This document shows, one piece after another, positions 4,685 through 23,888 of a stretch of 24,261 nt of DNA. Numbering within the stretch: the stretch's first letter is position 1; each line of letters opens with the position of its first letter. Below the pieces are notes generated by a model. That model searched no databases. It was given only the letters and a program-made list of their open reading frames with translations, and was not told the origin of the DNA. Both the position numbers and the translations under genes were made by a program. This DNA comes from a virus: IMG/VR virus record IMGVR_UViG_3300045999_003435, positions 1 through 24,261 of that record. One strand, 5' to 3'.

Positions 4685-4857
4685 TGGAACCTCACAACCA
4701 AGAGGCAGCAAAATTGATAACTGACGGCCTTTCGGTTGTGACGGTTTTGGGGACTTTGGCTGGCCTGCTCCCGGCAGTTGCTGCATTGTTTACGATTATC
4801 TGGACGGGTATTCGTATATACGAGACTGAGACTTTTCAGCGCTGGCTGGGCAAGTAG
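4684..4857 (+). CDS. Holin-like small membrane protein
   Basis: This 57-aa protein starts MEPHNQEAAKLITDGLSVVT. It has one long hydrophobic region (about residues 16-44, VVTVLGTLAGLLPAVAALFT then IIWTGI) that could hold one long or two short membrane segments. It ends in a charged tail, RIYETETFQRWLGK. The 'LPxxAALxTIxWTGIRIYET' pattern is what I know from small predicted holins in podoviruses of marine and alphaproteobacterial hosts. Its role would be to permeabilise the inner membrane at lysis. The ATG overlaps the cupin stop (TAATG). The lysis cassette continues with membrane proteins, endolysin and spanins. Confidence 0.75.
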   Translation: MEPHNQEAAKLITDGLSVVTVLGTLAGLLPAVAALFTIIWTGIRIYETETFQRWLGK

Positions 4858-4872
4858 GGGCAAGGTAATGGT

Positions 4873-5343
4873 ATGGACCCTGCTACAATCGCTGTCATAT
4901 TCGGAGTAGCCAAAGCTTCCTTTAACGCCGTACAGCAAGGTATTAAGTTTGGCAAAGACATCAACTCGATGTGTGGTGACATTGCCAAGCTGTACGGGTC
5001 AGTCGCCAAACTAACGCAAGCCAGCAAGACGCCGCCGAAACCAAAGCTGTTCAGCAAAGTCACTGCCGAGGAAATCGCTCTCGACACCGTGATGAAGCGG
5101 AAAGAAGCGGCGGAGATGGCGGAGAAGGTGAAGAACGACTTTGTATCTATTTACGGTCTGCATGGGTGGGAGGAGGTTCTCAAGGAGGTCATTCGGGTAC
5201 GAAAGCAACAGAGGCTACTTGAGGAAGAGAAAGCCCGCGCAGCCAAGCAGATGCGAGACGACTTGATGCAGCTAGGGCTGGTTGTACTGGTAGCGATAAC
5301 GATCATGGTGGGCTTATTTATTCTGGCAGTTTGGATGGCATGA
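4873..5343 (+). CDS. Coiled-coil, C-terminally membrane-anchored protein of unknown function
   Basis: This is a 156-aa protein. The N-terminus 'MDPATIAVIFGVAKASFNAV' is a hydrophobic/amphipathic helix. A long charged helical middle (about residues 63-132, with 'VRKQQRLLEEEKARAAKQMR') follows, then a clear membrane segment at 134-154. I recognise the family as widespread in marine phages next to lysis or tail genes, with no known function to my knowledge. The predicted topology, a soluble N-terminal part with a C-terminal anchor, would suit a lysis regulator, a holin partner or a membrane protein of superinfection exclusion. The ATG at 4868 is out of frame. The ATG at 4873 begins the conserved MDPATI sequence. 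Confidence 0.75.
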   Translation: MDPATIAVIFGVAKASFNAVQQGIKFGKDINSMCGDIAKLYGSVAKLTQASKTPPKPKLFSKVTAEEIALDTVMKRKEAAEMAEKVKNDFVSIYGLHGWEEVLKEVIRVRKQQRLLEEEKARAAKQMRDDLMQLGLVVLVAITIMVGLFILAVWMA

Positions 5344-6032
5344 TGGCGAAACCTCCTATTAAAAAACCAGCAGCAAAGAAGTCGCCGACAAAGAAACCTG
5401 CTGCTAAGGCTACAGAAGTTGCTGCTCCCAAGCCTCCGGGCGGGCCGATAGACAAAGTTCTTGATCTCGTTAAGTGGGTAGATAGCCCGTTTAAACTTGC
5501 GACAGTAGTGGTTCTTGGCGTCCTCGGTCTTGGTGGCTACATCGTCTACCAGCAGCAGGACAAGCTAGTTGGGGCGATTACTTCTCGCGAGACAATGCCA
5601 GTGCTGCTGTCAGATGAGCGGTTGTCGTCTATGGCTCGTGATTTGATCCGGGACACACGAGCCGAGACTGTTATTATTCACGAGATCGACTTAGCCAAGA
5701 ACGCTAGGACGACTCGAATTGCCCAGTCTCCAGACGGTCGCTTTGCAGCGCTGGAAGGAAAGAAGGGCGCGTTCTTCAGCGGATCACCTGACAGAAACAA
5801 AGCCGCAGTAGCCATGCTCAATGGTGAGGTTCTGTGTGAGCCCTTTACTGCATCCTCTGACGTAGGTGACTGGATCATCTCAAGGGGCGTAACCTACGCC
5901 TGCCGTGGATCAATCCCTCCTGAAGCCGGTCATATGGCCGGGTACATAGCCGTTGGCTTCAAACAAGAGCCTAGAGATACGACGGCAACCAAAGCACGGA
6001 TCAATCAAACCGCCAGAGACATGGCAAAGTAA
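5343..6032 (+). CDS. Single-pass membrane protein with Lys/Pro/Ala-rich N-tail
   Basis: This is a 229-aa protein. Residues 1-35 are a basic, disordered tail with repeated KKPAAKKSPTKKPAAK-type motifs. Residues 52-69 form a membrane segment (LATVVVLGVLGLGGYIVY). The remaining 155 residues are a folded, probably periplasmic domain with alternating helices and strands ('RDLIRDTRAETVIIHEIDLA', 'GDWIISRGVTYACRGSIPPE') that faintly resembles a GAF/PAS-like core. I do not recognise a named family. ATG codons at 5340 and 5343 are both possible; 5343 gives the TGATG junction typical of this operon. Its place between a membrane protein and the endolysin suggests a lysis-related or envelope role. Confidence 0.7.
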   Translation: MAKPPIKKPAAKKSPTKKPAAKATEVAAPKPPGGPIDKVLDLVKWVDSPFKLATVVVLGVLGLGGYIVYQQQDKLVGAITSRETMPVLLSDERLSSMARDLIRDTRAETVIIHEIDLAKNARTTRIAQSPDGRFAALEGKKGAFFSGSPDRNKAAVAMLNGEVLCEPFTASSDVGDWIISRGVTYACRGSIPPEAGHMAGYIAVGFKQEPRDTTATKARINQTARDMAK

Positions 6033-9409: not shown

Positions 9410-10325
9410 TCCTCCGGCACAACAAACGATCACCAACAAGACTGAGCTTCCTGCTTGGCTTGAGGCCGTGACCAAAGAGAACATTGCGCTTGCGCAGAGG
9501 GTTGCTGACCGGCCCTATGAGGCTTACGGCGGGCAGCTTGTTGCCGGGTTTAGCCCTGAGCAGGAACAGGCGTTCCAGTACGGTCTTTCCGGCGTAGGCC
9601 AGCAGGCTCCTAACTATCAAGCTGCGCAGCAGGCTGCTGCCGGAGTTGCCGGGTATCAGCCGCAGAATGTCACCGCACAGAACTTCTTGCAGGGCGACGT
9701 TGGCGCATACATGAACCCCTACATCCAGAATGTAGAAGATCGTGCGATTGCCAACGCCCAGCGCTCCGCGCAGATGAACATCAATCAGCTTGGCGCAAGC
9801 GCAGCTCGTTCTGGCGGATTTGGTTCGCGTCTTGGGGTTGCCGAGGGCGTTGCTGCTGCTGAAGCGGCCCGTGGTGTTGGTGACTTGTCGGCACAGCTTC
9901 GCTCTCAGGGCTTCCAGCAGGCTCAGGGTATTATGTCTCAGGATCAGGCCCGTGCGCTTCAGGCTGATCTGGCGAACCAAGCTGCTGGTCTTCAGGGTGG
10001 TCAGCTCAATCTTCAGGCCGCAGGACAGATGGGCGCTCTTGCAGGTTCAGCCCAACAGTCTCGGCTTGCCGATCTTGGTGTTCTGTCTGGCATTGGCGAG
10101 CAACAGCAGGGCATGCAGCAGCGTCTTCTTGATGAGCAGTATGCTCGATTCCTTGAAGAGCGTAACGCTCCGATTGAGGGTCTTAACCTTCGTCTTGCTG
10201 CAACATCTGCTACGCCGTATGGCGAGACAAGAACGCAGACCGGACCCGGCCCTCAAGGCCCAAATGCTTTGATGACTGGCCTTGGAGCTGCGGCGAGCAT
10301 TGCATCCATCATCGGCGCTCTCTGA
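9399..10325 (+). CDS. Ala/Gln-rich internal virion (DNA-ejection) protein
   Basis: This is a 308-aa protein. A Pro/Gln start (MGGSPPAQQTITNKTELPAW) and a 'FSPEQEQAFQYGLSGVGQQA' segment are followed by long Ala/Gln-rich helices ('NINQLGASAARSGGFGSRLG', 'QGGQLNLQAAGQMGALAGSA'). It ends in a hydrophobic Gly/Ala/Ile helix (ALMTGLGAAASIASIIGAL). This matches a common family of predicted ejection or internal core proteins in alphaproteobacterial podoviruses, comparable in role to T7 gp14. The hydrophobic end could insert into the host membrane on infection, which is inference. It overlaps the preceding gene by 11 bases and the next by one. Confidence 0.7.
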   Translation: MGGSPPAQQTITNKTELPAWLEAVTKENIALAQRVADRPYEAYGGQLVAGFSPEQEQAFQYGLSGVGQQAPNYQAAQQAAAGVAGYQPQNVTAQNFLQGDVGAYMNPYIQNVEDRAIANAQRSAQMNINQLGASAARSGGFGSRLGVAEGVAAAEAARGVGDLSAQLRSQGFQQAQGIMSQDQARALQADLANQAAGLQGGQLNLQAAGQMGALAGSAQQSRLADLGVLSGIGEQQQGMQQRLLDEQYARFLEERNAPIEGLNLRLAATSATPYGETRTQTGPGPQGPNALMTGLGAAASIASIIGAL

Positions 10326-11014
10326 TGATTACGACTGCGCTTCACTTCTCTGGTGGTAAAGATAGCTTGGCCTGCCTGTATATGTATCGCCATCGCTGGA
10401 AGGATATGTATGTCATCTGGGTCAATACAGGCTCTCTCTATCCCGAGATGCAGGCGTATATGGACAAGTGGAAGGCGATCCTTCCGCACTTTGTTGAGGT
10501 CAAGACAGACCAGCCCAAGCAGGTAGTAGAGAATGGATGGCCTGTTGACGTTCTGCCTGTCAACAACATGCCTCTTGGTCGTGTTATTTCTGGCAGCGAT
10601 GCCCCTTTGATGCAGCCTTATACATCTTGTTGCGCAACGAATATCTGGTTCCCTTTGCATGAAGCCACGCTCAAGTTAGGTGTGACTGAGGTTATCAAGG
10701 GTCAGAGGATCGAGGATGGGTTCAAGTCTCTTGCTCGCAACGGAACCGAGTTTCAGGGCTTGACCTACATTATGCCTATCGAGGACTGGACCACTGACGA
10801 AGTGTTCTCGTATCTGAATATGATGGAAGTAGAGCTTCCTCCGGGGGATAATGATGGTGAGAAAACTGGCCGCGATTGCTGGGATTGCACTGCGTTCTTA
10901 GGCGACAACCAACGCAGAATTGCTAACCTTCCTGAAGACCGCAAGAATGAGATCAAGCGCCGTCTTGGGATTATAAAGAAGTCCATAGACGATCAGTGGA
11001 ATTGGGTGGATTGA
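10325..11014 (+). CDS. PAPS/APS reductase-like PP-loop protein with Fe-S type cysteines
   Basis: This is a 229-aa member of the adenine-nucleotide alpha-hydrolase superfamily. The PP-loop is SGGKDS (residues 9-14). Further family motifs are 'VNTGSLYPEMQAYM', 'KGQRIEDGFKS' and 'PIEDWTTDEVFSYL'. C102-C103 and C185-x2-C188 form a CC-x81-CxxC pattern, the arrangement that ligates a [4Fe-4S] cluster in bacterial assimilatory APS reductases. The C-terminal ECGLH-type catalytic cysteine motif of true reductases is absent, because the protein ends in DDQWNWVD. So it may activate a substrate by adenylation or work in sulfur or nucleotide modification rather than reduce APS. It sits inside the ejection block, with one-base TGATG overlaps on both sides. 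Confidence 0.85.
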   Translation: MITTALHFSGGKDSLACLYMYRHRWKDMYVIWVNTGSLYPEMQAYMDKWKAILPHFVEVKTDQPKQVVENGWPVDVLPVNNMPLGRVISGSDAPLMQPYTSCCATNIWFPLHEATLKLGVTEVIKGQRIEDGFKSLARNGTEFQGLTYIMPIEDWTTDEVFSYLNMMEVELPPGDNDGEKTGRDCWDCTAFLGDNQRRIANLPEDRKNEIKRRLGIIKKSIDDQWNWVD

Positions 11015-12319: not shown

Positions 12320-13663
12320 ATGGCTGAAGGTTTCTTGGGCGGTCTCAGCGACTTCGCCGGAGGCGTAGGCGACTTCTTCACGGGCGGTGGCGTGTACGGT
12401 GACCCAAAGAACATTAACCAGCGCTATGGTGTGCCGGAGGCTGACGTTCGTCAGGCCGGTCTAGGCGCTTTGGGCAATGTTGGTGCGCTGCTTCTTGCTG
12501 CCGGACAGTCTCCAGATCGGGGCCAGCGTGCGCAGTTCTTGGGGCAGCTTGGTGGTGCCGTAAGCGGTATGAACACCGACATCTACAAGTCCTCGCAAGC
12601 TCGTCTGATGAACGCGCAGCAGCAGGGGGCTATGCGTGAGCTGGAAGAGAATAGGGCTTTGTCTGCTTGGGCTCAGAGCCCAGAAAACCTGAAGAGCGTC
12701 GGCTTGACGCCTGAACAATTTAGGGTCGTTGGAACAGCAGGTCTAAAGGAAATTGTTAAAAATACGACTTTAGCGGCTGCGAAAATTACACCCGCTCAGC
12801 GAGCCGCAGATGCGGCTATTGCGGCCATTGTGTCCGGTGGTTCAGCTCCTGCGCCTATCTCCACGCAGCCTCAAGTCGCGCCCCCCTCGGTGCCTCCTGT
12901 AGCAGCTCAAACTCAAGATCAGGCCCAGACTCAAGTTGCTCCGCAAGCTCAGCCCTCCGCCCCTAGACAGTCGATTAGTGGCGAAGACATGGCGAGGGCT
13001 GTGGCTGAGAACCCTGCGGTTATCTTTGGTCGCCCGGAGGTTGCGAAAAACCTTGCGCAAATTAGCGACTCTCTTGGAAAGGAATCGAGAGAAGTTAGAA
13101 CCGCGATGCAAAAGGAATATCTGAAGCCAATCTTCGAGCGTGCATCGTCAATCAACTCGCTTATCCCCGCGCTTGATGCCGCAGAAAAAGCCATACAGGC
13201 GGTTCCGGGGGGCCCGGCTGCGCAAGCCTTAAACTACTATGGTAAGGTTGCCTCCTCTCTTGGGTTGCCTGTGCCAGAAGGCTCTGCGCAAGCCTCTATT
13301 CTCAGCTCTATTGGAACCCAACTTGCCCCCATATTCAAATTGCCGGGTGCAGTTTCAAATGCGGAAATGGCTCTGTACACAACTGCCGGGCCAAGTCTTG
13401 GAGATACTCCAGAGGCTAACAAACTAAAGATTGATCTTATGCGCGCTCTTGGGGCAAGGGCAAAGGCTATCGCAGATATTGGATATAGATATGGCGGCAA
13501 GCCTGAGTTGTTTGAAAGACTTGCTGAGTTTGATAAGCCGGTATTTACTGAGGACCAGAGAAAGCGACTTGAGCAGGCTGCCGGAATATCAGCCCCCAAG
13601 GCAAAGCCGTCAGCCGCCGCCCCCGTTGGGGGCGCTCGACTCGTTAGAGAAATAAGACAGTAG
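12320..13663 (+). CDS. Internal virion / DNA-ejection protein (447 aa)
   Basis: The protein starts with a Gly/Phe-rich amphipathic segment (MAEGFLGGLSDFAGGVGDFF), then 'VPEADVRQAGLGALGNVGAL' and long helices. The middle (about residues 175-215) is a Gln/Pro/Ala-rich linker (VAPQAQPSAPRQS). The C-terminal half is again helical ('LNYYGKVASSLGLPVPEGSA'). Large Ala-rich helical proteins with amphipathic N-termini are typical of podovirus ejection proteins, so an internal core role is inferred. GGGAGG lies 7-8 bases before the ATG. Confidence 0.65.
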   Translation: MAEGFLGGLSDFAGGVGDFFTGGGVYGDPKNINQRYGVPEADVRQAGLGALGNVGALLLAAGQSPDRGQRAQFLGQLGGAVSGMNTDIYKSSQARLMNAQQQGAMRELEENRALSAWAQSPENLKSVGLTPEQFRVVGTAGLKEIVKNTTLAAAKITPAQRAADAAIAAIVSGGSAPAPISTQPQVAPPSVPPVAAQTQDQAQTQVAPQAQPSAPRQSISGEDMARAVAENPAVIFGRPEVAKNLAQISDSLGKESREVRTAMQKEYLKPIFERASSINSLIPALDAAEKAIQAVPGGPAAQALNYYGKVASSLGLPVPEGSAQASILSSIGTQLAPIFKLPGAVSNAEMALYTTAGPSLGDTPEANKLKIDLMRALGARAKAIADIGYRYGGKPELFERLAEFDKPVFTEDQRKRLEQAAGISAPKAKPSAAAPVGGARLVREIRQ

Positions 13664-15854: not shown

Positions 15855-15875
15855 AAAAAAACTCAAAAATAATTG

Positions 15876-15905
15876 TTGACTCCCCCGTGATCTGTCAACT
15901 ATGGT
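15876..15905 (+). promoter_or_regulatory. Predicted early promoter with GANTC site on the -35 box
   Basis: The -35 box TTGACT (15876-15881) and the -10 box TATGGT (15900-15905) are 18 bp apart. Transcription would start near 15912, 20-odd bases before the ATG at 15934. The A/T-rich stretch upstream (15853-15875, including nine A's) could act as an UP element. GACTC at 15878-15882, a GANTC (CcrM) site, overlaps the -35 box. This is the clearest sigma70-type promoter I can see and lies where late genes give way to early genes. Confidence 0.6.
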
Positions 15906-15927
15906 TGTCAAGTGGATCGCGGGGGAG
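15880..15927. promoter_or_regulatory. Long inverted repeat over the early promoter and the next gene's ribosome site
   Basis: The arms CTCCCCCGTGATC (15880-15892) and GATCGCGGGGGAG (15915-15927) are reverse complements with a single mismatch, which would be a G-U pair in RNA. The centre is 22 bases. A second dyad, GTTGAC (15875-15880) with GTCAAC (15894-15899), is nested in it and overlaps the promoter. As DNA this looks like a two-part operator. In a read-through late transcript it would fold and hide the GGGGGAGGA ribosome site of the gene at 15934. There is no U-run, so it is not a standard terminator. Confidence 0.55.
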
Positions 15928-15933
15928 GAAAAC

Positions 15934-16035
15934 ATGGAACCCTTTAGTATCGCAGTTGTAGCTTTCTTTGTGCTGCCAGTTGTGTTTTTGGGTCTTGTTG
16001 CTCTCTGCGCGATGTTCGACGGAGAGGACGAATGA
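15934..16035 (+). CDS. 33-aa single-pass membrane peptide
   Basis: The short gene encodes MEPFSIAVVAFFVLPVVFLG, then LVALCAM and an acidic end FDGEDE, so nearly the whole peptide is one membrane helix. GGGGGAGGA lies 5 bases upstream of the ATG, the strongest ribosome site of the early region. It is the first gene after the predicted early promoter and overlaps the next gene as ATGA. Its function is unknown. Early single-pass peptides in phages often alter the host membrane or exclude other phages, but nothing in the sequence shows this. Confidence 0.65.
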   Translation: MEPFSIAVVAFFVLPVVFLGLVALCAMFDGEDE

Positions 16036-16229
16036 ACCCGATAAACCTCATAACAAACGACGACGGAACCTACACGCTTGAGTATTTTGGCCGTGTCGTC
16101 GGCTACATCAAGCGCTCATTGGATTTCACAGGAAGCTCCATCTTCAGGGCAGTCAGTGTGCAAGGTGGCCTATGCTACGCAAGCACGCTCGAAGACGCAC
16201 GCTCTGGCTTGCTGGAGATGTCGCGATGA
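16032..16229 (+). CDS. Early 65-aa protein of unknown function
   Basis: This is a small soluble protein of mostly beta strands: 'LITNDDGTYTLEYFGRVVGY', 'GSSIFRAVSVQGGLCYASTL', then a short helix 'EDARSGLLEM'. I do not recognise the family. The ATG overlaps the preceding stop (ATGA), and its own stop overlaps the next ATG the same way, giving strong evidence that it is translated within the early operon. Confidence 0.6.
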   Translation: MNPINLITNDDGTYTLEYFGRVVGYIKRSLDFTGSSIFRAVSVQGGLCYASTLEDARSGLLEMSR

Positions 16230-16495
16230 ATGGATACCTCACCGCCGGGCTTCGTGGCTTCAAGGTTCGCGAGGCTGTGACTCCAATCCTTGAGAAGAGT
16301 GGCGTACCGTGGTCTGTCATCACTGGACCAAGGCGCTTTCCTCACATCGTCTCAGTAAGGCATGAAATCTTTGTTGTTCTGCGCGAGCTTGGGTTTTCAT
16401 ACACAAAAATCGGCATGATCTGCAACCGTGAGCATACAACCGTAATTCACGGAGTTAGACGTTACATGGAGAGAGTGAATGAACAATATAGCTGA
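16226..16495 (+). CDS. Stand-alone DnaA domain IV-like DNA-binding protein
   Basis: This is an 89-aa protein. From about residue 36 it matches the C-terminal DNA-binding domain of DnaA: 'RRFPHIVSVRHEIFVVLREL', 'GFSYTKIGMICNREHTTVIH' and 'GVRRYMERV'. The 'REHTTVIHGVR' segment (68-78) is the DnaA signature helix-turn-helix (consensus DHTTVLHA), which reads the DnaA box. The ATPase and other DnaA domains are absent. The longer reading from 16172 overlaps the previous gene, whereas the ATG at 16226 gives an ATGA junction. It could compete with host DnaA at oriC or at promoters, or mark a phage origin. Both are inference. Confidence 0.85.
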   Translation: MNGYLTAGLRGFKVREAVTPILEKSGVPWSVITGPRRFPHIVSVRHEIFVVLRELGFSYTKIGMICNREHTTVIHGVRRYMERVNEQYS

Positions 16496-16757
16496 CACGT
16501 TGGATGAGCGCGAAGAGGAGTACGGAAGGTACGCAGACCTCTCCCACCTTCTTGAGTCTATCATTGAGGCATATACCTGCTCTAAAAACTGGGTGAACAT
16601 GGAACCCTATCAAAGAGTAGCGCTCTACATGGATGCAATGAAGACAGCTCGCATCCTGAACGGCAACCCGGACAACATCGACTCTTGGCATGACAAGGCT
16701 GGCTATTCGGAGCTGGTTGTAAAAGAACTGAAGTGGAGAAGAGACCATGACAAATAA
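16479..16757 (+). CDS. DUF6378-type phage protein
   Basis: This is a 92-aa helical protein. 'ADTLDEREEEYGRYADLSHL' and 'YQRVALYMDAMKTARILNGN' followed by 'PDNIDSWHDKAGYSELV' match the small family I know as DUF6378, common in early regions of phages. The conserved 'K.ARILNG.P...DSWxDxAGY' block resembles the metal-binding helices of MazG-like nucleotide pyrophosphohydrolases, but full catalytic E-x-x-E motifs are not evident. A nucleotide-pool role is therefore only possible. GGAGAG precedes the ATG, and it overlaps the DnaA-like gene by 17 bases. Confidence 0.75.
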   Translation: MNNIADTLDEREEEYGRYADLSHLLESIIEAYTCSKNWVNMEPYQRVALYMDAMKTARILNGNPDNIDSWHDKAGYSELVVKELKWRRDHDK

Positions 16758-17025
16758 TCAGATCAGAACCATCGTCGAGCGCATCGAGAAGATGGAAGAA
16801 GAGAAACTGGCGATTACCACAGACATCAGCGAAATCTACAAAGAGGCCAAAGCAAACGGCTTCGATGCGAAAATTATCAAGAAGATTGTCGCTATGCGGA
16901 AGAAGGACGCCAACAAGCTGGCAGAGGAGCAAGCGATCATGGATGTGTATATGGCGGCTCTGGGTATGCTTGCAGATACTCCGCTGGGGATGGCCTCAAT
17001 GGATAGAGCAAGGATGGGCGAATGA
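16747..17025 (+). CDS. gapR: GapR-family (DUF2312) nucleoid-associated protein
   Basis: This is a 92-aa protein matching GapR over its full length: 'IRTIVERIEKMEEEKLAITT', 'DISEIYKEAKANGFDAKIIK', 'KIVAMRKKDANKLAEEQAIM', then 'DVYMAALGM'. Caulobacter GapR is about 89 aa. It forms a clamp-like coiled-coil tetramer on overtwisted AT-rich DNA ahead of replication forks and RNA polymerase, and assists topoisomerases. The family is essentially confined to alphaproteobacteria and their mobile elements. A phage copy could support phage replication or displace the host protein. It overlaps its upstream neighbour by 11 bases and the next gene by 4. Confidence 0.9.
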   Translation: MTNNQIRTIVERIEKMEEEKLAITTDISEIYKEAKANGFDAKIIKKIVAMRKKDANKLAEEQAIMDVYMAALGMLADTPLGMASMDRARMGE

Positions 17026-17555
17026 GGGCTGCAACGGCTGCTCTTCTGGTGTTTGCGCTTCCAGCGCAGGCATCAGAGACGGCAGCCGAGTTCTTCGCCA
17101 AGGATAGGGGTCTAGCGCATGCAAAGACAGAAGCAGAAGCCAAGCCGGGTCCGGCCTCTCAAAGCAAAGCGAAAGAAGTTATCGCCCGTGAAGTTGAAAA
17201 AACGCTCGGTGCGCAATGGGTTTCCGTTGCTTTCGACCAAGCGAGGCGGGAATCGAACTTTCGCCCAAACGCCATCGGCGTCAAGCTTGGCAAAAGGCAT
17301 GGGCATCAGCGAGCGGTTGGCATCTTCCAAGTACTTCCATCCACTGCTCGGGGCTTGGGGTTTGATCCTCGTCGGCTTACTGATCTGGACTATGGGGTGA
17401 AGGTTGGCGTTGCTTATATGGGTGAGTGCATCAAGGCTGGAGTCAAAACATCAAGCCAAATGAACTCATGCTTTCTTTATGGCTATCATGGTTGGGGAAG
17501 AGCAAATGCGAAAAAGCGTAATCATCTGCAACGATCTGCACGACATTCTGGCTAG
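17022..17555 (+). CDS. Exported lytic transglycosylase (SLT domain) in the early operon
   Basis: This is a 177-aa protein with a signal peptide (residues 1-17, MRAATAALLVFALPAQA, probable cleavage after A17). A charged linker follows, then an SLT domain from about residue 60: catalytic E77 in 'ARRESNFRPNAIG', 'RAVGIFQVLPSTARGLGFDP' with the G-I-F-Q motif (100-103), and 'DLDYGVKVGVAYMGECI'. It should cleave peptidoglycan in the periplasm with formation of anhydro-muramic acid. The end 'FLYGYHGWGRA' is the normal domain end, followed by a short basic tail. An early, exported cell-wall enzyme is unusual, because the lysis genes are late. It overlaps the next gene by about 50 bases. Confidence 0.85.
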   Translation: MRAATAALLVFALPAQASETAAEFFAKDRGLAHAKTEAEAKPGPASQSKAKEVIAREVEKTLGAQWVSVAFDQARRESNFRPNAIGVKLGKRHGHQRAVGIFQVLPSTARGLGFDPRRLTDLDYGVKVGVAYMGECIKAGVKTSSQMNSCFLYGYHGWGRANAKKRNHLQRSARHSG

Positions 17556-17835
17556 GTCAGCACTGCCGGACATTCTTGTCCCTAGAGACTTAGCGCACGA
17601 TGCGCTCCAGCAGATCATCCACACGCGCAAGCGCATTTTGGAGCTGGAAGACGCACTGGATGTCGCACGGGAAGACAGGAAGCGAGACCGTATCTATCAC
17701 TTGGAGACATTTGGCAGGATGACGCGGGTGCTGAAGCAATACGCCTGTGAATGCTCTGAGGAGTGCGAAGAGAAGCCAGAGGACGCATCTTATTGTGGCT
17801 GGGCAGCAAAGCAGGCGATGGAGGGGAAGGTATGA
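17506..17835 (+). CDS. Early 109-aa protein with coiled coil and Cys-rich end
   Basis: I do not recognise the family. The N-terminus 'MRKSVIICNDLHDILARSAL' is followed by a helical 'IHTRKRILELEDALDVARED' coiled coil. Near the end comes 'QYACECSEECEEKPEDASYC' with five cysteines that could bind a metal. The ATG at 17506 follows GGGGAAG at proper distance; earlier in-frame ATGs at 17479 and 17488 lie deeper in the transglycosylase gene. The stop overlaps the next ATG (ATGA). Confidence 0.6.
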   Translation: MRKSVIICNDLHDILARSALPDILVPRDLAHDALQQIIHTRKRILELEDALDVAREDRKRDRIYHLETFGRMTRVLKQYACECSEECEEKPEDASYCGWAAKQAMEGKV

Positions 17836-18068
17836 CTTTCGAACCATCAGGGACATTACCCGGCAGAGAAAACAGGAAGCTGCGGCAGCGGGTGCATGAG
17901 TTAGAGCAGGACTTGAAACGTGTCAGGATCGTGATGAGGGACGCAGCCATTGAGGCTTCCGACATCACAGACTTTATCAAGCGTGGCATGACAGAAAGGG
18001 CGGGACACTATGCAGGAGCATTGCAGCGAAAGCTCGACGTTGAACGATCAAGTGGCCCCAGCATCTAG
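17832..18068 (+). CDS. Early 78-aa coiled-coil protein
   Basis: This is a small, highly charged protein. Residues 10-45 ('NRKLRQRVHELEQDLKRVRI') form a predicted coiled coil, followed by 'EASDITDFIKRGMTERAGHY'. No family is recognised. It begins in an ATGA overlap. Its last 59 bases are shared with the next gene in another frame. It may pair with the coiled-coil protein immediately upstream, but that is speculation from composition. Confidence 0.55.
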   Translation: MTFEPSGTLPGRENRKLRQRVHELEQDLKRVRIVMRDAAIEASDITDFIKRGMTERAGHYAGALQRKLDVERSSGPSI

Positions 18069-18327
18069 GCATCAAGGCTCTCCGATTAAGGACGAGCTGG
18101 GGAAAAGGTTTGGTCGGCTAACTGTTGTTCAGCGAATTTATCAGAAGCGAAAGCTGACGCAGCGATGCAGGGCGATATGGGAATGCAGGTGCGATTGTGG
18201 GGCTGAGATAAAAGTGTCCGGCAACCTGTTGCGCAAGGGCGTCTTCAAAGAGTGCGCAACATGCGCAGCAGTTTGGGAGAAGGTTAGTGAGCGAGCGAAA
18301 CAAGGAAATCATCAGACTATGGAATGA
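18010..18327 (+). CDS. Small zinc-ribbon-like phage protein
   Basis: This is a 105-aa protein. The core 'LGKRFGRLTVVQRI' followed by 'WECRCDCGAEIKVSGNLLRK' and 'ECATC' is a pattern found in many phage proteins, alone or next to HNH and AP2-like domains. It normally reads 'GKRFGRLTV...W.C.CDCG....V....L..G...SCGC'. C59, C61, C63, C82 and C85 probably bind zinc, suggesting nucleic-acid contact. The ATG at 18010 lies 59 bases inside the previous gene and has GGCGGGA upstream; TTG 18040 or GTG 18052 are possible later starts. Confidence 0.65.
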   Translation: MQEHCSESSTLNDQVAPASRHQGSPIKDELGKRFGRLTVVQRIYQKRKLTQRCRAIWECRCDCGAEIKVSGNLLRKGVFKECATCAAVWEKVSERAKQGNHQTME

Positions 18328-18808
18328 AGAGAAGAGCGCTAAGGAAGTTGCAGGTGTTATCGGTGTTACCAAGAACGTGGTCATATCCGTTATCACGAAG
18401 GCCAGAGACAAGGGTCTCATCACAAGGGCGAAGCTACCAAGCAACAGGTCTCGCGGAGCGTTTGGTCAGGCCATCCTTCGTAACAAGAAGCGGGTGGTGG
18501 AGAAGAAGGCAACGGCCATGCCGAAGCTGTTCGTTGCAGACAAAGAGAAAGAAGACGCTGTTGCTATCGGTGTGTCCTTTCTTGAGCTTAACCATGATGG
18601 GTGCAGGTATCCAACAAGCCGGTTCGAGGGGCAGCATTACTTCTGCGGCGAACCAAAGCGAGACACGAAGACCAGCTATTGCGAGCTACATCATGCGCTT
18701 TGCTGGCACGAGAAGAAAAGGCTTACGCCTTCGGAGATGTTGAAATTGAAGACCATGTATGCCAAGCGCGCATGGATGCAAAGCAGGGGGAAGCAGAATG
18801 AGCGATGA
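18287..18808 (+). CDS. gcrA: GcrA-family cell-cycle transcription regulator
   Basis: This is a 173-aa protein. The N-terminal helix-turn-helix 'RNKEIIRLWNEEKSAKEVAG' and 'VIGVTKNVVISVITKARDKG' has GcrA layout (W-x-E, A-x-x-x-G-V-T-x-N-x-V). The C-terminal part 'HDGCRYPTSRFEGQHYFCGE' and 'SYCELHHALCWHEKK' matches the conserved C..YP....FCG.P...YC..H region that contacts sigma70 in GcrA. In Caulobacter GcrA rides on RNA polymerase and activates promoters with methylated GANTC sites. The phage protein could redirect this activity. Translation starts at GTG 18287, 6 bases after GGAGAAGG; this start places the HTH at the usual distance. It overlaps the previous gene by 41 bases. Confidence 0.85.
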   Translation: MSERNKEIIRLWNEEKSAKEVAGVIGVTKNVVISVITKARDKGLITRAKLPSNRSRGAFGQAILRNKKRVVEKKATAMPKLFVADKEKEDAVAIGVSFLELNHDGCRYPTSRFEGQHYFCGEPKRDTKTSYCELHHALCWHEKKRLTPSEMLKLKTMYAKRAWMQSRGKQNER

Positions 18809-18843: not shown

Positions 18844-19086
18844 ATGGGAAAAAAGAAGGGGATTAATCTTTGGACGCCGGAGGAGGACAAGCACGTCGAG
18901 GAAAACTACACCGGATATGCTTCTATTCCGATTATTGCAAAAACGCTGGCGCGCACTGAGAAGTCTGTTGCGAGCAGGATTGCGATCACAATAAGCGGCA
19001 CTGGGGGACGTAGGATGGAGGAAGAGAAACAAGCCTGCATCCTTCACAGCCTCGACCTTTTGAGATCAGGCGGGCGGTACAAATAG
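18844..19086 (+). CDS. Myb/SANT-like small DNA-binding protein
   Basis: This is an 80-aa protein. Residues 8-48 resemble a single Myb/SANT-type three-helix unit, 'LWTPEEDKHVEENYTGYASI' and 'PIIAKTLARTEKSVASRIAI', with the first Trp of the motif and a recognition helix rich in Arg/Lys/Ser. Similar 'W..EED..L...Y....I..IA..L.RT..SV..R' proteins occur in phage early regions. DNA binding is inferred; the target is unknown. A second, acidic helix follows (MEEEKQACILHSLDLLRSGG). An 85-base gap follows the stop. Confidence 0.65.
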   Translation: MGKKKGINLWTPEEDKHVEENYTGYASIPIIAKTLARTEKSVASRIAITISGTGGRRMEEEKQACILHSLDLLRSGGRYK

Positions 19087-19171
19087 TTGTCTACAAGCGC
19101 GATGTATTCAACGGATTGTATCAATCTAGTTTAGCTGCCAATAGTAATTGACGACACAAGAAAGGGACAAC
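19087..19171 (+). promoter_or_regulatory. Intergenic gap with a GATTG-TAT-CAATC palindrome
   Basis: The 85-base gap between the Myb-like gene and the nuclease gene is AT-rich and has a perfect 13-bp dyad, GATTGTATCAATC, at 19114-19126. This size suits a small repressor such as the Cro-like protein encoded nearby. I could not fit convincing -35/-10 boxes (TTGTCT at 19087 has no partner at proper distance), so a promoter is possible but not shown. AAAGGG at about 19161-19166 serves the ATG at 19172. Confidence 0.35.
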
Positions 19172-19981
19172 ATGAGAAACGAGCGGATCGAAGACCTGTT
19201 GGCAAGCGACTACCACAAGATCGAGGCTCTATCGGCTTCTGGTGCGAAGTCTCTACTGCGTTCCCCGGCTCACTATTTAGCTATGAAGGAAACATTCAAA
19301 GAGCCGACCCCGGCTATGCGTTTGGGGACGGCTGTTCACACGATGATCTTAGAGCCGGAGAAATTCGAGGAAGAGATCGCCGTGATGCCGAAGTTCGACA
19401 AGCGCACTAACTTGGGCAAGAAGGCAATCGAAGAATGGAGCGAGGAGCAGACAGGCAAATGCATCATCGACCACTACCAGCACGAACGCGCAAAGCAGAT
19501 CGCTGAAAGCGTTTGGTCACATCCTTTCTTCAAGGAGCGGGTGAATGGTGGGCGATCTGAGTCAACGCTTCTCTGGGAACAGTACGGAGTCCAGTGCAAA
19601 GCACGTTTGGACTATTGCAAAGATCAGACGATCTTCGACGTGAAGACTTGTCAGGACGCCTCGCCAGAGGGGTTCGCAAAGCAAATCGCCAACTTCCAAT
19701 ACCACGTACAGGCCGCTCATTACTCGATGGGCTTCCGTCGCGTCACAGGGGATAAGCTGGAGCGGTTCGTCTTCATTGCTGTTGAATCTGACTTTCCGCA
19801 CATGGTTGGAATTTACACGCTCGACCGCAATTCGCTTTATGCCGGGCAGATGAAAATGGAGACGGCAGCCAAAGCATACAAGCACGTCTTGGATGGGTCT
19901 GCGGATCGGAACTATTCAAGCAAGGTCGTTGAACTAAGCGTTCCTAATTGGGCAATGCCTGAACCTTTTGCGAGGGGGTAA
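19172..19981 (+). CDS. RecE/exonuclease VIII-like PD-(D/E)XK nuclease
   Basis: This 269-aa protein is predicted to degrade one strand of double-stranded ends for recombination. Motifs in order: 'ASGAKSLLRSPAHYLAMKET' at the N-terminus, 'MRLGTAVHTMILEPEKFEEE' with H56, 'CKARLDYCKDQTIFDVKTCQ' with D147, D156 and K158 as the D-x(n)-D-x-K metal site, and 'QYHVQAAHYSMGF' with the Q-x3-Y motif. This is the family pattern of phage RecE-type nucleases. No annealing protein (RecT/Beta) is visible beside it. The start is ATG 19172 with AAAGGG upstream; TTG 19148 is less likely. The next gene begins one base after its stop. Confidence 0.85.
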   Translation: MRNERIEDLLASDYHKIEALSASGAKSLLRSPAHYLAMKETFKEPTPAMRLGTAVHTMILEPEKFEEEIAVMPKFDKRTNLGKKAIEEWSEEQTGKCIIDHYQHERAKQIAESVWSHPFFKERVNGGRSESTLLWEQYGVQCKARLDYCKDQTIFDVKTCQDASPEGFAKQIANFQYHVQAAHYSMGFRRVTGDKLERFVFIAVESDFPHMVGIYTLDRNSLYAGQMKMETAAKAYKHVLDGSADRNYSSKVVELSVPNWAMPEPFARG

Positions 19982-19982
19982 G

Positions 19983-20192
19983 ATGAAAGAAAAGGAGATA
20001 CTGAAGCTTCTTGAGAAGCGTAGGCTTGAGCATGGGATTTCTAAGCGTGAGTTCTCTACCCGTGCAAAGCTGTCGCATGCTACCTACGCCTCGCTGTTCA
20101 AGCCCAAACACGAGATGAGCCTGCGCGTTGCATCTGCAATGCTGCAAAGCGTCGGGGCCAGATTGGAAATAGTAGATGATACTAGCAATTGA
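19983..20192 (+). CDS. Cro/XRE-type small helix-turn-helix protein
   Basis: This is a 69-aa protein that is essentially one HTH domain: 'KLLEKRRLEHGISKREFSTR', 'AKLSHATYASLFKPKHEMSL' and 'RVASAMLQSVGARLEIVDD'. The layout (SxxEFSxxAxLSxATYxxL, helix 2 to helix 3) fits XRE/Cro-like regulators. GGGGGTAAG lies just upstream of the ATG at 19983. It sits between the recombination nuclease and the resolvase and overlaps the latter by 17 bases. It may control the early operon, possibly through the nearby palindrome at 19114; this is inference. Confidence 0.7.
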   Translation: MKEKEILKLLEKRRLEHGISKREFSTRAKLSHATYASLFKPKHEMSLRVASAMLQSVGARLEIVDDTSN

Positions 20193-20643
20193 TCCCGGAG
20201 CTAAGGGCGCGCTGGCGTTCTTTAATCCTGCAACTGGTGCTTTGGAGTTGGTGGACACACCGACCGTTGAAGTGAAGCGTGGGGCGAAGACAAAGAACGA
20301 GATCAGCGCGCAGATGCTTGCTGGGATTATCAGGGCTCGGTCGCCGTCTGAGGCGGTTGTGGAGAAGGTTGGAGCAATGCCGGGCCAAGGTGTCTCAAGC
20401 ATGTTTCAATTTGGGCGTGGCGTTGGGATGATCGAAGGCGTGCTTGCTGCTTTGGAAGTCCCGGTAACATATGTGGCACCACAGAAATGGCAACGGGATG
20501 TAGGTGCAAGGGCGGGGAAGGATGGAAACCGGCAGCGTGCTGCTGAATTATTCCCGGCTTATGCGCAGAGCTTCGCGAGAGCGAAAGACGACGGGCGGGC
20601 TGATGCTGCGCTCATGGCTTGGTGGAGGGCGGCAAATGGATAA
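20176..20643 (+). CDS. RuvC-like Holliday junction resolvase
   Basis: This is a 155-aa RNase H-fold nuclease that should resolve branched DNA before packaging. Acidic active-site positions are visible: D6 in 'MILAIDPGAKGALAFF', E63 in 'EAVVEKVGAMPGQGVSS', and the C-terminal pair around D139/D143 in 'ARAKDDGRADAALMAWW'. The 'SMFQFGRGVGMIEGVLAALE' segment is typical of phage RuvC-like proteins. Length is close to E. coli RuvC (173 aa). The start is ATG 20176, inside the end of the HTH gene; the stop overlaps the next gene by 8 bases. Confidence 0.85.
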   Translation: MILAIDPGAKGALAFFNPATGALELVDTPTVEVKRGAKTKNEISAQMLAGIIRARSPSEAVVEKVGAMPGQGVSSMFQFGRGVGMIEGVLAALEVPVTYVAPQKWQRDVGARAGKDGNRQRAAELFPAYAQSFARAKDDGRADAALMAWWRAANG

Positions 20644-20875
20644 TGAGTATTCTATGGTGAAGCCGGAGTCGGTTGATCTGGCTTATGAAATCCTGAACCA
20701 GTTTCAAGGGGCTGATGCTGCTGTCGTCTTCCCCGCACTGGTTGTCATCGTGACGGAGTTAATCGCGCAGACCTGCACGGATCGGGCAGAGGCGAAGCTC
20801 GTTGCGCTCGGAATTTTTGAATCGGTAGCTGAGAGCCTGAAGCACTCGGAAGAGTTAGGCCCGCTGTCCAACTAA
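20636..20875 (+). CDS. Early 79-aa helical protein of unknown function
   Basis: This is an acidic, mostly helical protein: 'VDLAYEILNQFQGADAAVVF', 'PALVVIVTELIAQTCTDRAE', 'AKLVALGIFESVAESLKHSE'. The amphipathic pattern, with a hydrophobic stretch 'AAVVFPALVVIVTELIA' too short and polar-flanked to be certain as a membrane segment, suggests a small helical bundle. I do not recognise a family. The ATG at 20636 overlaps the resolvase stop. A 47-base gap with a small hairpin follows. Confidence 0.6.
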   Translation: MDNEYSMVKPESVDLAYEILNQFQGADAAVVFPALVVIVTELIAQTCTDRAEAKLVALGIFESVAESLKHSEELGPLSN

Positions 20876-20881
20876 TCCCAG

Positions 20882-20898
20882 CCTTGGGGGTTCCAAGG
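20882..20898 (+). other. Small 6-bp hairpin before the SSB-like gene
   Basis: CCTTGG (20882-20887) and CCAAGG (20893-20898) can pair around a GGGTT loop, a few bases after the stop at 20875. There is no T-run, so it is not a classical terminator. It might mark an RNA-processing site or be chance. Confidence 0.3.
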
Positions 20899-20922
20899 TA
20901 TAACAAGCGAAAGAGTAAGAAC

Positions 20923-21540
20923 ATGGCACTTGGTTTGAAGTTCGACACGTCCGGCACTGGTCGCAAGTATATTCCCTTCGTCAAGTTCGACGCGAAGTCG
21001 GGAGACATGCTGATCGTCAACAGCACCCCGCAGTCAGACGGAACATGGGAGAAGTCAGAGGTTGAACTAAAGCTTCCGACTCATGCGATCTGTGATCTGG
21101 CAAACATCGAGATCGGCTGGATTGGGTTCATCGACGGCAAGTTCGACAACGTGATGGCTAAGGCCGGTGAGAAGATGCCAGCCTGCCCCAGCTCAGAGCA
21201 TAAGCAAGGCGTTCGCCTGCGCATGTTCTTCAAAGAGCATGGCCTGCGCGAGTTCATGCACACGTCGAAGAATGTCCTGCGCGTCATTGACGCAATCCAC
21301 ACGCAGGCAGAGGGAGAGCAGGCAGCCAACCCCGGCAAGGTTCCGGTCGTCTCGATTAGCGGCACCGAAACCATCAAGATGCAGACCAAGCAAGGCGAGC
21401 TTCGCTTCAAGGTTCCGGTTATGGAGATCGTGAAGTGGGTGGAGATGCCAGCCGAAATGAAGGAAGCGGCGTCTGGAGCTGAGCCTGCAAAGCCTACGAC
21501 TGCGGCGAAGCCTGTAGCGGAGCTTGACGACGACTTTTAA
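20923..21540 (+). CDS. SSB-like single-stranded DNA-binding protein
   Basis: This is a 205-aa protein. The N-terminal part ('MALGLKFDTSGTGRKYIPFV', 'KFDAKSGDM') and the following strands are typical of a phage family placed just before primase-helicase genes and thought to be single-strand binding proteins. The C-terminus is a disordered Ala/Pro linker ending in an acidic tip with terminal aromatic residue, AELDDDF, as in SSBs and T7 gp2.5. It would coat single-stranded DNA at phage forks. The OB-fold itself cannot be proven by eye. The start is ATG 20923; a TTG at 20884 would add 13 unconserved residues. Confidence 0.65.
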   Translation: MALGLKFDTSGTGRKYIPFVKFDAKSGDMLIVNSTPQSDGTWEKSEVELKLPTHAICDLANIEIGWIGFIDGKFDNVMAKAGEKMPACPSSEHKQGVRLRMFFKEHGLREFMHTSKNVLRVIDAIHTQAEGEQAANPGKVPVVSISGTETIKMQTKQGELRFKVPVMEIVKWVEMPAEMKEAASGAEPAKPTTAAKPVAELDDDF

Positions 21541-21548
21541 TAAAAAAC

Positions 21549-21583
21549 GGGGGCGATGGGCGGGAGAGCTCACCATCGCCCCC
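21549..21583 (-). terminator. 11-bp GC-rich hairpin with T-run in the minus direction
   Basis: GGGGGCGATGG (21549-21559) pairs perfectly with 21573-21583 around a 13-base loop. On the minus strand the stem is followed by GTTTTTTATTA, a proper intrinsic terminator for leftward transcripts. On the plus strand no T-run follows; there is only another small hairpin (CCTGC-CGC-GCAGG, 21582-21594), so rightward transcription could be slowed but not cleanly ended. It lies between the SSB-like and primase-helicase genes. Confidence 0.7.
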
Positions 21584-21611
21584 TGCCGCGCAGGAAGGGG
21601 AAGGACACGGC

Positions 21612-23888
21612 ATGTTGAACATACCAGAAAACAAATTCAGCGATAGCACTTCAATCACTTTGGGCATTGCCACAGGCGGCGCAACAGATGTTAAGCTCAA
21701 GCCTACCCTGTTCTCGTGGGAGTCGTTCAAGAATCGCCTACGCTCTCCACGGATTGGGGACAAGGGCGGCAGCTACTACATCCGTGGCGGCGACCTGATC
21801 GAGAACAAGCGGTCTGACGAGAACCTGCGCACGGCTGAGATGATAATCTTGGACGGCGACAGCCGCTTTGATCCAGAAACAGGCGAGATCATCAACGGGG
21901 CACCTGACCTGAACAAGGTCTGCGCTGCGCTGGAAGAGATGAATATCACGTTCTGCGCTCACACGTCCCACAGCTACGTTCCAGATCAGCTCTGGAAGTA
22001 CAGGATTATAATCCCAGCAAGAATTGATAGCGGGGAAACCTTAACAGCTTGCGTTGCCTATCTGATCGACAGCTTGGTTGCGCGTGGTATCCATCTTGCT
22101 GACGTGCCGGAGAACCATCGTTGGTCGCAGCCTTGGTTTACGTCTAGGGTTCGAGATCGTGCGGCTAATGAAGAGTTCTTATTCTTTGAGCATACCGGCG
22201 CGGTGTTCGATCCCTACGGGGCGGTACTCTGGAACGATGCGCGTGTTTTAGCGTCAGAGGCTACAGCAAAGGCGCGTGCGCCTGCTGCTGGTCCCGTTGA
22301 GAAATCCGGGGCCATTGCAGAGTTTAACGACAGTCACGGGCTTGAATGGGTCCGATCTGAGCTTGAGGGTGCAGGCTATCGCTTCGGATACTTTGACCGC
22401 ACGCATGATGCCTACCGTTACATGCGACCGGGATCGTCCACTAAAACCTTCGGGCTTGTCGTCTTCAAAGGGTCAATGGGTCACTGGTGTACATACTCGC
22501 ATCACGGCAGCGCCGATAGATTATCTGGCAAGGTGTGCGATCCGTTTCAGCTTGTCGCCGAATTGCGTTACGGGGGCGACCTGAAAGCGGCTGCGGCTGG
22601 TGTGTTGCAAAAGATCGCGAAGCCTAGCGTAGTGGAGCAACTAGCCCAACGTGCGGAGAAGCGCAACCTTGAGCGTGAACTTGAGGCGTACAGTTTGGGA
22701 GACGTGCAGGAAGAGGCGGCAGCCTCTACTCCAACACCTAGTGTTACAGAACCAAAGCGCCGGATCGAGCTTATCAAGTGGGGCGAGTTGCGCGATGAGC
22801 CTGTGCGTTGGACGATCAAGGACATTCTACCTGCAAACAGCTTCGGGGCTCTGTATGGGCATCCCGGGTCATACAAGAGCTTCGCGGCTCTGTATCTAGC
22901 GGTAGCGATTGCTGGCGGTCTGGAAGCCTTCGGAAAGCCATGCGTGCAAGGTCCGGTCATCTACATAGCTCTGGAAGGTGGGGCTGGTCTGAAGCGTCGG
23001 CGGGATGCTCTGAAGCAATCAATGGGGCTGCCCGACGATCTGCCTTTGTTCTTTATCAAGTCGCAGCTTAACCTTGGATCGACATTGGAGGACCGCGACG
23101 CATTGGTTGCTGAGATTAAACGCATAGGCGTAAAGCCCTCTCTGGTCATTATTGACACGTTTGCGAGGGCTACGCCTGGCATCGAAGAAAACAGCGCTAA
23201 GGACGTGGGCTCGGCTATAACGATCATGTCCTCGCTGCAAGATGATTTAGGCTGCGGCGTTCTGATTATTCACCATAGCGGCAAAGACCAAGCCAGAGGC
23301 ATGCGCGGATCTTCTGCGTTGCTGGGTGCGGTAGACCTAGAGCTTGAATGCCAGAAGATAAGCCAAGAGGGTTCGACGGACAGAATCGGAAAGCTAACCG
23401 TCACCAAACAGAAAGACGGCGAGGACGGGATCGTTCTTGGTTATCGGATGGACGTGATTGCGCTCTCGCAGATAGACCCGGAGGCTACATCTTTGGCGCT
23501 TGTGCCGATTGCGGAGAATGAGCTAGCCGACGCCTCGAAGGTTAAGAGCGCCAAGGACAACAAAACGGGCGTTGATGCAAAGATAGCTCTAGAGGCATTG
23601 CATCAGGCTATCGGTGAGGGCGGCGACGTTCCGCCGATAGGTGACAGAGCGCCACGAGGGACAAAGGCCGTACGCGAAGCGTTGTGGCGGGATTATTGGA
23701 GAAAGACAACGACCAAGGAAGGCGGGGCAGAACGTACAGGATGGTCGAGAGCTAAAGAGAACCTGACGACAACTGGGCGCGCTGCGCATTGGGGGGAATG
23801 GTGGTGGGTCGTCAAACAGGAAGAAGCACACGCCGACCCATTTAAGAGCGAGCGCGTGCTAGAGAGGTCTGATGATATGCCGTTTTAG
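21612..23888 (+). CDS. Primase-helicase fusion (AEP-like primase + RepA/RecA-like ATPase)
   Basis: This is a 758-aa replication protein. Residues about 60-200 look like an archaeo-eukaryotic-type primase: 'AEMIILDGDSRFDPETG' with D81/D83, 'AHTSHSYVPDQLWKYRIIIP' and 'WSQPWFTSRVRDR'. A linker domain (about 240-335) follows, then a RecA-like helicase core: Walker A GHPGSYKS (416-423), Walker B LVIIDTFAR (D515), sensor 'GVLIIHHSGKDQARGMRGSS'. The Walker A variant with Pro and Tyr is normal for the RepA/AAA_25 group. The protein should lay primers and unwind DNA at phage forks. The C-terminus ends ERSDDMPF, an SSB-like tip. GGAAGGGGAAGGA precedes the ATG. It converges with the minus-strand gene, overlapping it by 4 bases. 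Confidence 0.85.
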   Translation: MLNIPENKFSDSTSITLGIATGGATDVKLKPTLFSWESFKNRLRSPRIGDKGGSYYIRGGDLIENKRSDENLRTAEMIILDGDSRFDPETGEIINGAPDLNKVCAALEEMNITFCAHTSHSYVPDQLWKYRIIIPARIDSGETLTACVAYLIDSLVARGIHLADVPENHRWSQPWFTSRVRDRAANEEFLFFEHTGAVFDPYGAVLWNDARVLASEATAKARAPAAGPVEKSGAIAEFNDSHGLEWVRSELEGAGYRFGYFDRTHDAYRYMRPGSSTKTFGLVVFKGSMGHWCTYSHHGSADRLSGKVCDPFQLVAELRYGGDLKAAAAGVLQKIAKPSVVEQLAQRAEKRNLERELEAYSLGDVQEEAAASTPTPSVTEPKRRIELIKWGELRDEPVRWTIKDILPANSFGALYGHPGSYKSFAALYLAVAIAGGLEAFGKPCVQGPVIYIALEGGAGLKRRRDALKQSMGLPDDLPLFFIKSQLNLGSTLEDRDALVAEIKRIGVKPSLVIIDTFARATPGIEENSAKDVGSAITIMSSLQDDLGCGVLIIHHSGKDQARGMRGSSALLGAVDLELECQKISQEGSTDRIGKLTVTKQKDGEDGIVLGYRMDVIALSQIDPEATSLALVPIAENELADASKVKSAKDNKTGVDAKIALEALHQAIGEGGDVPPIGDRAPRGTKAVREALWRDYWRKTTTKEGGAERTGWSRAKENLTTTGRAAHWGEWWWVVKQEEAHADPFKSERVLERSDDMPF

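Follow-up and report, generated by a model that had tools for sequence, protein, structure and literature searches.

Homologues of DnaA domain IV, GapR and GcrA in one operon of a phage with a likely alphaproteobacterial host

Caulobacter GapR occupies overtwisted DNA and enhances the activity of gyrase and topoisomerase IV (PMC8510090). Single phage copies of cell-cycle factors are already known, as curiosities: GcrA is carried by phage phiCbK (gp222; PMC3556154) and by Agrobacterium phage Atu_ph08 (PMC6630229), with a proposed change of the host replicative state, and GapR of an Erythrobacter phage (R34L1/L2) was claimed to be the first in a phage genome (PMC12185513). T4 DsbA has also been tied to the GapR family (PMC7824862). 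Here we analysed the IMG/VR virus record IMGVR_UViG_3300045999_003435, a stretch of 24,261 bases called the window throughout, which encodes a DnaA domain IV protein, a GapR and a GcrA-type protein in one run of overlapping genes. The reading that we favour, with a probability of about 0.4 as a whole, is that a virulent, podovirus-like phage has assembled three host-factor homologues in one early or middle operon, where each would have its own task. The combination and its recurrence were not found described in the open-access literature searched, in which no paper named GapR, GcrA, DnaA and phage together.

In gene order, the window leads from a major capsid protein of the SU10 type, by way of tail and internal virion genes, to a replication block, with a RepA-type primase-helicase at the end. 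Three relatives were identified: L002/L102, a single contig of 38,445 bases that is judged near-complete because its two ends overlap, L003 (25 kb), and MW202711.1 (39.7 kb, circular and complete). A megablast search of phage records gave no match. Lysogeny was rejected as a lifestyle, no tyrosine integrase being found in L002, L003 or MW202711.

The three homologues and their likely host

All three families announced in the first-pass annotation are present, with profile matches above the Pfam cut-offs:

16226..16495, + strand: stand-alone DnaA domain IV (DnaA-box-binding helix-turn-helix, HTH), 89 amino acids (aa); from Pfam, AlphaFold and Foldseek
16747..17025, + strand: GapR (DUF2312), 92 aa, full DNA-binding domain and C-terminal tail LADTPLGxAA; from Pfam, a PDB match and tail comparison
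18287..18808, + strand: GcrA-type protein of 173 aa, with an HTH at the N-terminus and a C-C-C-H domain of the sigma70-interacting type at the C-terminus; from Pfam and a 7ye1 profile match

The DnaA-type protein matches Pfam Bac_DnaA_C (PF08299) over residues 22-79 of 89 (E 1.7e-9, 38 bits, cut-off 31.5). It keeps the NREHTT signature and is devoid of domains I-III, including the AAA+ domain (domain III), and full-length DnaA models of NCBIfam scored 20-25 bits against cut-offs above 340. Judged by its sequence, the product is the DnaA box-binding domain only and not a DnaA. An AlphaFold model (predicted local distance difference test, pLDDT, 90) submitted to Foldseek gave DnaA chains as the top seven PDB matches (3pvp, template modelling (TM) score 0.78; 1j1v, TM 0.73). 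This is cleaner evidence than the PDB profile search, in which designed helical repeats rank first through compositional bias. By alignment, R37 and E69-H70-T71 may correspond to R399 and D433-H434-T435, the box-reading residues of E. coli DnaA. No DnaA-box array was found in the window, L003, L002/L102 or MW202711, which have 0, 1, 0 and 0 perfect boxes and no box cluster, and no iteron array was found in the phage sequence examined. Canonical DnaA boxes were thus rejected as the phage origin, since they show neither excess nor cluster. For the same reason phage-borne canonical boxes are an unlikely target, and the host origin and DnaA-controlled promoters would be the natural one.

For GapR, Pfam GapR_DNA-bd (PF10073) is covered from profile position 2 to 72 of 72 (E 1.9e-28, 98.3 bits, cut-off 22.6), and solved GapR structures were matched at E 1.4e-24 to 5e-14, Caulobacter GapR at E 6e-20, in agreement with the full-length GapR-type domain first described. 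The broader subfamily NF010247 was reached (99.4 against 94 bits), unlike the NCBIfam equivalog of Caulobacter GapR, NF052541 (89.7 against 140), and by these scores the protein is a member of the family, not a shown equivalent of Caulobacter GapR. GapR occurs in at least 151 INPHARED phage records and at least 364 IMG/VR stretches. Among isolates, its gene lies beside DNA polymerase in RHph_Y5A, Milano, 7-7-1 and RLK, beside Pol III beta in Psul1, a sliding clamp in Cr30, a helicase in RapA and a resolvase in Azospirillum phage Cd.

Two side observations concern GapR. The C-terminal tail LADTPLGxAA (window 16963-17022) is frequent in phage GapR and was found among 80 bacterial loci only in L202 and L268, which are probably prophage copies because they combine this phage-type tail with the proximity of a gene of the GcrA or DnaA type. 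In Ruegeria phage 45A6 (L191) and Rhodobacter phage RcMeacham (L194), GapR homology lies within longer annotated open reading frames (ORFs) of 352 and 442 aa, which suggests GapR-domain fusions.

The GcrA-type protein scores 46.5 bits with Pfam GcrA (PF07750; cut-off 26.9, E 6.7e-12), the match extending from position 5 to position 147 of the 155 in the profile. A profile search also aligned it to Caulobacter GcrA 7ye1 (E 1.7e-6), HTH and C-terminal domain included, which upholds its family assignment. Its invariant residues are C106, C120, C132 and H135. The NCBIfam equivalog of cell-cycle GcrA (NF050816) was not reached (28.7 bits, cut-off 280), so that on profile scores the protein is a family member and not an equivalog. 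A fold search was uninformative, generic HTH proteins coming first and 7ye1 weakly at rank 5 (E 0.12), and no tblastn match was found among INPHARED phages at E 0.01. In L003, an additional HTH-only GcrA copy (12648-12929) immediately precedes the full-length gene.

An alphaproteobacterial host is likely, because the nearest non-phage relatives of the window GapR are nearly all from Hyphomicrobiales and because, among 14 control genomes, GapR and GcrA were matched only in Caulobacter, save for one Sulfolobus match for GcrA.

Recurrence of the three genes in phage neighbourhoods

We surveyed 86 GapR loci, chosen by similarity to the window GapR, lying on fragment contigs and dereplicated by DNA similarity to 59 neighbourhoods. 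ORFs, called by a simple procedure, were clustered into families with one hidden Markov model each, and families were ranked by presence within 1.5 kb of GapR on the same strand, the expectation being drawn from permuted positions among the same-strand genes of each locus; the p-values ignore phylogeny beyond the dereplication. GcrA headed this ranking (9/59 against 3.4 expected, p 0.0008), and its excess persisted without the window lineage (8/55 against 2.7, p 0.0006). DnaA domain IV came second (6 of 59 against 2.3 expected, p 0.01), an enrichment that we withdrew once the discovery lineage was excluded (3 against 1.6, p 0.20); four or more lineages besides that one have it next to GapR. 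CcrM-like methyltransferases were rejected as GapR partners, DNA methyltransferases being present in 14 of the 59 neighbourhoods without enrichment (p 0.30). Around 80 bacterial GapR loci, GcrA was near in one and DnaA in none (phage versus bacteria for GcrA, Fisher p 0.002).

The trio recurs in L046, which is unrelated to the window. Its GapR gene, with the stop at 4709, is followed by one for a GcrA C-terminal domain alone (76 aa, 4706-4936; Pfam 1.1e-11) and then by one for a protein with DnaA domain IV (4926-5555; Pfam 1.1e-18). The three are consecutive and overlap or almost do so, and ParB-like and methyltransferase genes come next. In L046, L060, L313 and L342 the GcrA and DnaA domain IV genes adjoin directly or overlap, and in the records to which L023 and L026 belong they lie about 250 bp apart or less. 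A GcrA-type match was present in 5 of 22 named isolates, and in ppBjS10J-1 the DnaA gene lies 0.5 kb from GapR. In Milano, 7-7-1 and vB_MseS-P1 only the GcrA C-terminal domain matches, in some cases below the cut-off, at about 0.6 kb or less from GapR. Such C-terminal-only GcrA genes also adjoin GapR in L046 (4706-4936) and L059 (768-1124); from their domain content, it is possible that they are natural sigma70 decoys rather than activators.

The first-pass annotation had gone further and proposed a module by which the three proteins together seize the timing of host replication and transcription. The survey bears out part of this proposal, as the GapR-GcrA adjacency exceeds chance, is the strongest among phage families near GapR and is almost never seen in bacterial loci (1/80), and as the trio and the GcrA-DnaA pairs described above recur outside the window lineage. 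The DnaA-GapR part did not survive the exclusion of that lineage. Moreover, of 53 GcrA-centred phage neighbourhoods, 3 contain GapR, all adjacent (p 0.04), and 3 contain DnaA, so that GapR is missing from the surroundings of most phage GcrA genes; GapR alone is common; and the operon includes a transglycosylase and a GapR that behaves as a replication-core gene (see below). A dedicated module therefore appears unlikely to us.

The opposite view, that accessory regulators were acquired separately from alphaproteobacterial hosts and collected in the early region without joint function, is also doubtful. It agrees with the wide occurrence of each family alone in alphaproteobacterial phages, with a count of 8 among about 47 GapR records that have both GcrA and DnaA domain IV, where independence gives about 6.5, and with the loss of GcrA in MW202711. 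It does not account for a GapR-GcrA excess that survives a same-strand permutation controlling for the early region, when DNA methyltransferases show no enrichment in spite of their presence in a larger number of loci. In a second sample, chosen by RepA similarity, DnaA was found in 6/15 GapR carriers against 3/29 other records (p 0.04) and GcrA in 5/15 against 1/29 (p 0.01), a contrast confounded by host range because GapR and GcrA are both alphaproteobacterial. Taken together, the association is recurrent but optional, and strongest for GapR and GcrA.

Operon layout and upstream control element

From a 33-aa ORF at 15934 to the end of GcrA at 18808, each ORF on the + strand overlaps the next in one run. 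The first-pass annotation spoke of one early transcript. The single operon is supported by this overlap and by a conserved promoter-like element upstream, features that favour transcription as one unit, and the word early is drawn from the adjoining replication genes. The operon is not made solely of regulators, GapR and GcrA being separated by a lytic transglycosylase, two ORFs without a family match and an HNH-related zinc protein. The features other than the three homologues are:

15868..15930, + strand: conserved control element, 63 bp; from conservation in L002 and L003, promoter scan and inverted repeat
15934..16035, + strand: first gene of the operon, a 33-aa ORF whose product is probably one transmembrane helix (MEPFSIAVVAFFVLPVVFLGLVALCAMFDGEDE); read directly, with a similar ORF in the sequence of L002 and L003
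16032..16229, + strand: 65-aa protein without Pfam match, overlapping its neighbours (ATGA); homologues in L005 and L016
16479..16757, + strand: DUF6378 protein (Pfam 4e-7), between DnaA domain IV and GapR by synteny
17022..17555, + strand: lytic transglycosylase (SLT) with a signal-peptide-like start (Pfam 1.4e-7)
17479-17835 and 17763-18068, + strand: two overlapping ORFs without significant family match in Pfam and PHROG searches
18010..18327, + strand: small zinc-binding protein, kin to the phage HNH endonuclease family phrog_374 (PHROG E 1.5e-12)
18844..19086, + strand: small SANT/Myb-like DNA-binding protein, after GcrA in L003 and L102 (PHROG transcription regulators 4.9e-5; synteny)
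19148-19981, + strand: exonuclease VIII-like (Pfam and PHROG matches; synteny with L003, L102 and L005; L005 counterpart named exodeoxyribonuclease 8)
19968-20192, + strand: XRE HTH protein (family matches), part of the replication/recombination block 19148..23888
20176-20643, + strand: RuvC-like resolvase (family matches; L005 counterpart named holliday junction resolvasome)
20884-21540, + strand: SSB-like protein (family matches; block synteny with L003, L102 and L005)
21612-23888, + strand: RepA-type AAA_25 primase-helicase (family matches; L005 counterpart named repA)

The order DnaA domain IV, DUF6378, GapR is common to four genomes (window, L002, L003 and MW202711). GcrA lies downstream at a distance in the window, L003 and L102, always ahead of the Myb-like gene and the exonuclease. 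A defence function was rejected for the DnaA domain IV, GapR and GcrA proteins, none of which had a PADLOC match. Two further observations were made along these genomes: an ORF of glycine/tyrosine-rich repeats (GSGYGYGSG...) in the operon of a relative (L002:13336-13551 and L102:1-120, overlapping contig ends), and a PAPS (3'-phosphoadenosine 5'-phosphosulfate)-reductase-like protein at window 10325-11014, amid virion genes and kept in all relatives.

The control element contains a promoter-like pair (TTGACT 15876-15881, TATGGT 15900-15905) and a 13-bp inverted repeat, CTCCCCCGTGATC (15880-15892) and GATCGCGGGGGAG (15915-15927). Per 40 nt, L002 and L003 differ from it by 1-3 mismatches, in a region that is overall 73% identical with L003, and it is unrecognisable in MW202711. 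As the promoter scan alone was at chance level (5 found, 4.6 expected), the promoter case rests on conservation. Folded as RNA, the element gave -33.6 kcal/mol (z -4.5), and an Rfam search gave no match. The ribosome-binding site of the 33-aa ORF sits within the right arm of the repeat, and RNA started at the element's own promoter is devoid of the left arm. Judging from this arrangement, read-through RNA from the upstream late genes could hide the ribosome-binding site, a possible switch against translation of early genes from late transcripts.

A GANTC at 15878-15882 overlaps the -35 of the promoter-like element, and it is conserved despite the genome-wide under-representation of this motif (44 observed, 65 expected). 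This fits with the idea that the three proteins act on phage DNA only, with DnaA domain IV as a binder of origin or regulatory sites, GapR, in the manner of T4 DsbA, as a clamp for late transcription or replication, and GcrA as an activator of phage promoters; the link of DsbA to the GapR family and the annotation of Rhodobacter phage GapR homologues as DsbA-like go in the same direction. However, the phage sequence examined holds no DnaA-box or iteron array, and 7 of the 15 GANTC sites of the region are common to L003, so that conservation alone does not set the promoter GANTC apart and its status as a specially conserved site was rejected. We consider an action confined to phage DNA quite improbable. 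We also make no claim for a tie between GANTC depletion and GcrA presence (pooled observed/expected 0.52 in GcrA-positive phages against 0.66, p 0.14). Depletion is strong in some GapR phages (L023, 0 against 44 expected; L026, 2 against 32; L076, 6 against 38), which suggests pressure from CcrM-type methylation by the host.

Proposed tasks and comparison with known systems

Because synonymous sites are saturated, we compared the window and its relatives by dN (nonsynonymous divergence) only. GapR changes slowly (0.07-0.08), as do RuvC (0.03-0.06), RepA (0.09) and SSB (0.10), and DnaA domain IV (0.42-0.55) and GcrA (0.55-0.62) change fast. Such a contrast is what one would predict for a GapR that is part of the replication core and for a DnaA domain IV and a GcrA that adapt to host partners. 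We place GapR at phage forks because of this rate and of its replication-gene neighbours in isolates, and for GapR the comparison points to the phage's own replication rather than to host timing.

From the families, operon, synteny, GapR-GcrA adjacency and rates observed, we infer the activities, targets and cooperation of the three proteins as follows. A GapR ring on overtwisted DNA would help host gyrase and topoisomerase IV to clear positive supercoils, ahead of RepA-driven phage forks and at strongly transcribed phage genes. DnaA domain IV could compete but not initiate, since only the box-binding domain is present: it would occupy DnaA boxes without the AAA+ domain needed for DNA opening, most likely on host DNA (oriC and DnaA-regulated promoters), and thereby hold back new initiation. 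GcrA, given its HTH and its sigma70-type domain, would act as a sigma70 cofactor, binding to RNA polymerase with sigma70 and directing it, perhaps at promoters that carry GANTC, the phage's own included.

Several points weigh against this assignment of three tasks. The D-H pair of the recognition motif is altered in close relatives (HHTT in L002, DPTT in L003), so these domains may bind other sites, phage sites included, and such variation suits either shifting targets or a loss of box specificity. Other accessory genes of the operon evolve equally fast (dN 0.4-0.6), and the speed of DnaA domain IV and GcrA could reflect relaxed constraint. The block can do without GcrA, which the complete genome of the related phage MW202711 lacks. 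Finally, about 15 kb of the phage genome lie outside the window.

A bolder version of the three-task reading is that of a recurrent takeover cassette of reduced alphaproteobacterial cell-cycle factors, which would stall host initiation, clear supercoils for phage forks and redirect sigma70. Its parts would be a GapR of the phage type, a DnaA cut to its DNA-binding domain and a GcrA of which some phages keep only the part that binds sigma70. We put it forward as a speculation that is probably not correct in full. In any case, a statistically supported GapR-GcrA neighbourhood in unrelated phages, at times with a DnaA-box-binding domain encoded in the same operon, makes a possible reprogramming of the host cell cycle directly testable. 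It also offers small natural proteins that might inhibit DnaA and GcrA in Caulobacter and rhizobia, and stand-alone GcrA C-terminal domains beside GapR that suggest natural sigma70 decoys.

Compared with full DnaA, the window protein has no domains I-III and cannot hydrolyse ATP or load helicase, but it shares the fold of domain IV from E. coli (1j1v) and M. tuberculosis (3pvp) and, by alignment, the HTT of the recognition motif, and it matches PHROG 27829, 'DnaA-like replication initiation protein'. The GcrA of the window has in common with those of phiCbK and Atu_ph08 that it is phage-borne and combines an HTH with a C-terminal domain, and is distant from them in sequence. In Atu_ph08, GcrA comes immediately after a GapR gene (hypothetical in the record), and no DnaA domain IV match was found there. 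Mesorhizobium phage vB_MseS-P1 also has a GcrA-type gene and GapR close together (annotated GcrA cell cycle regulator and DNA-binding protein); it differs by its gene order, by its temperate lifestyle (integrase) and by a DnaA-type match that is weak and 3 kb away. In L046 all three genes stand in a row, in another gene order than in the window and with the GcrA C-terminal domain alone. As for GapR, the number of INPHARED records carrying it runs against the claim of a first phage copy in Erythrobacter phage R34L1. Compared with Caulobacter GapR (CCNA_03428, DUF2312, UPF0335), the full DNA-binding domain is alike, and the phage type adds the LADTPLGxAA tail.

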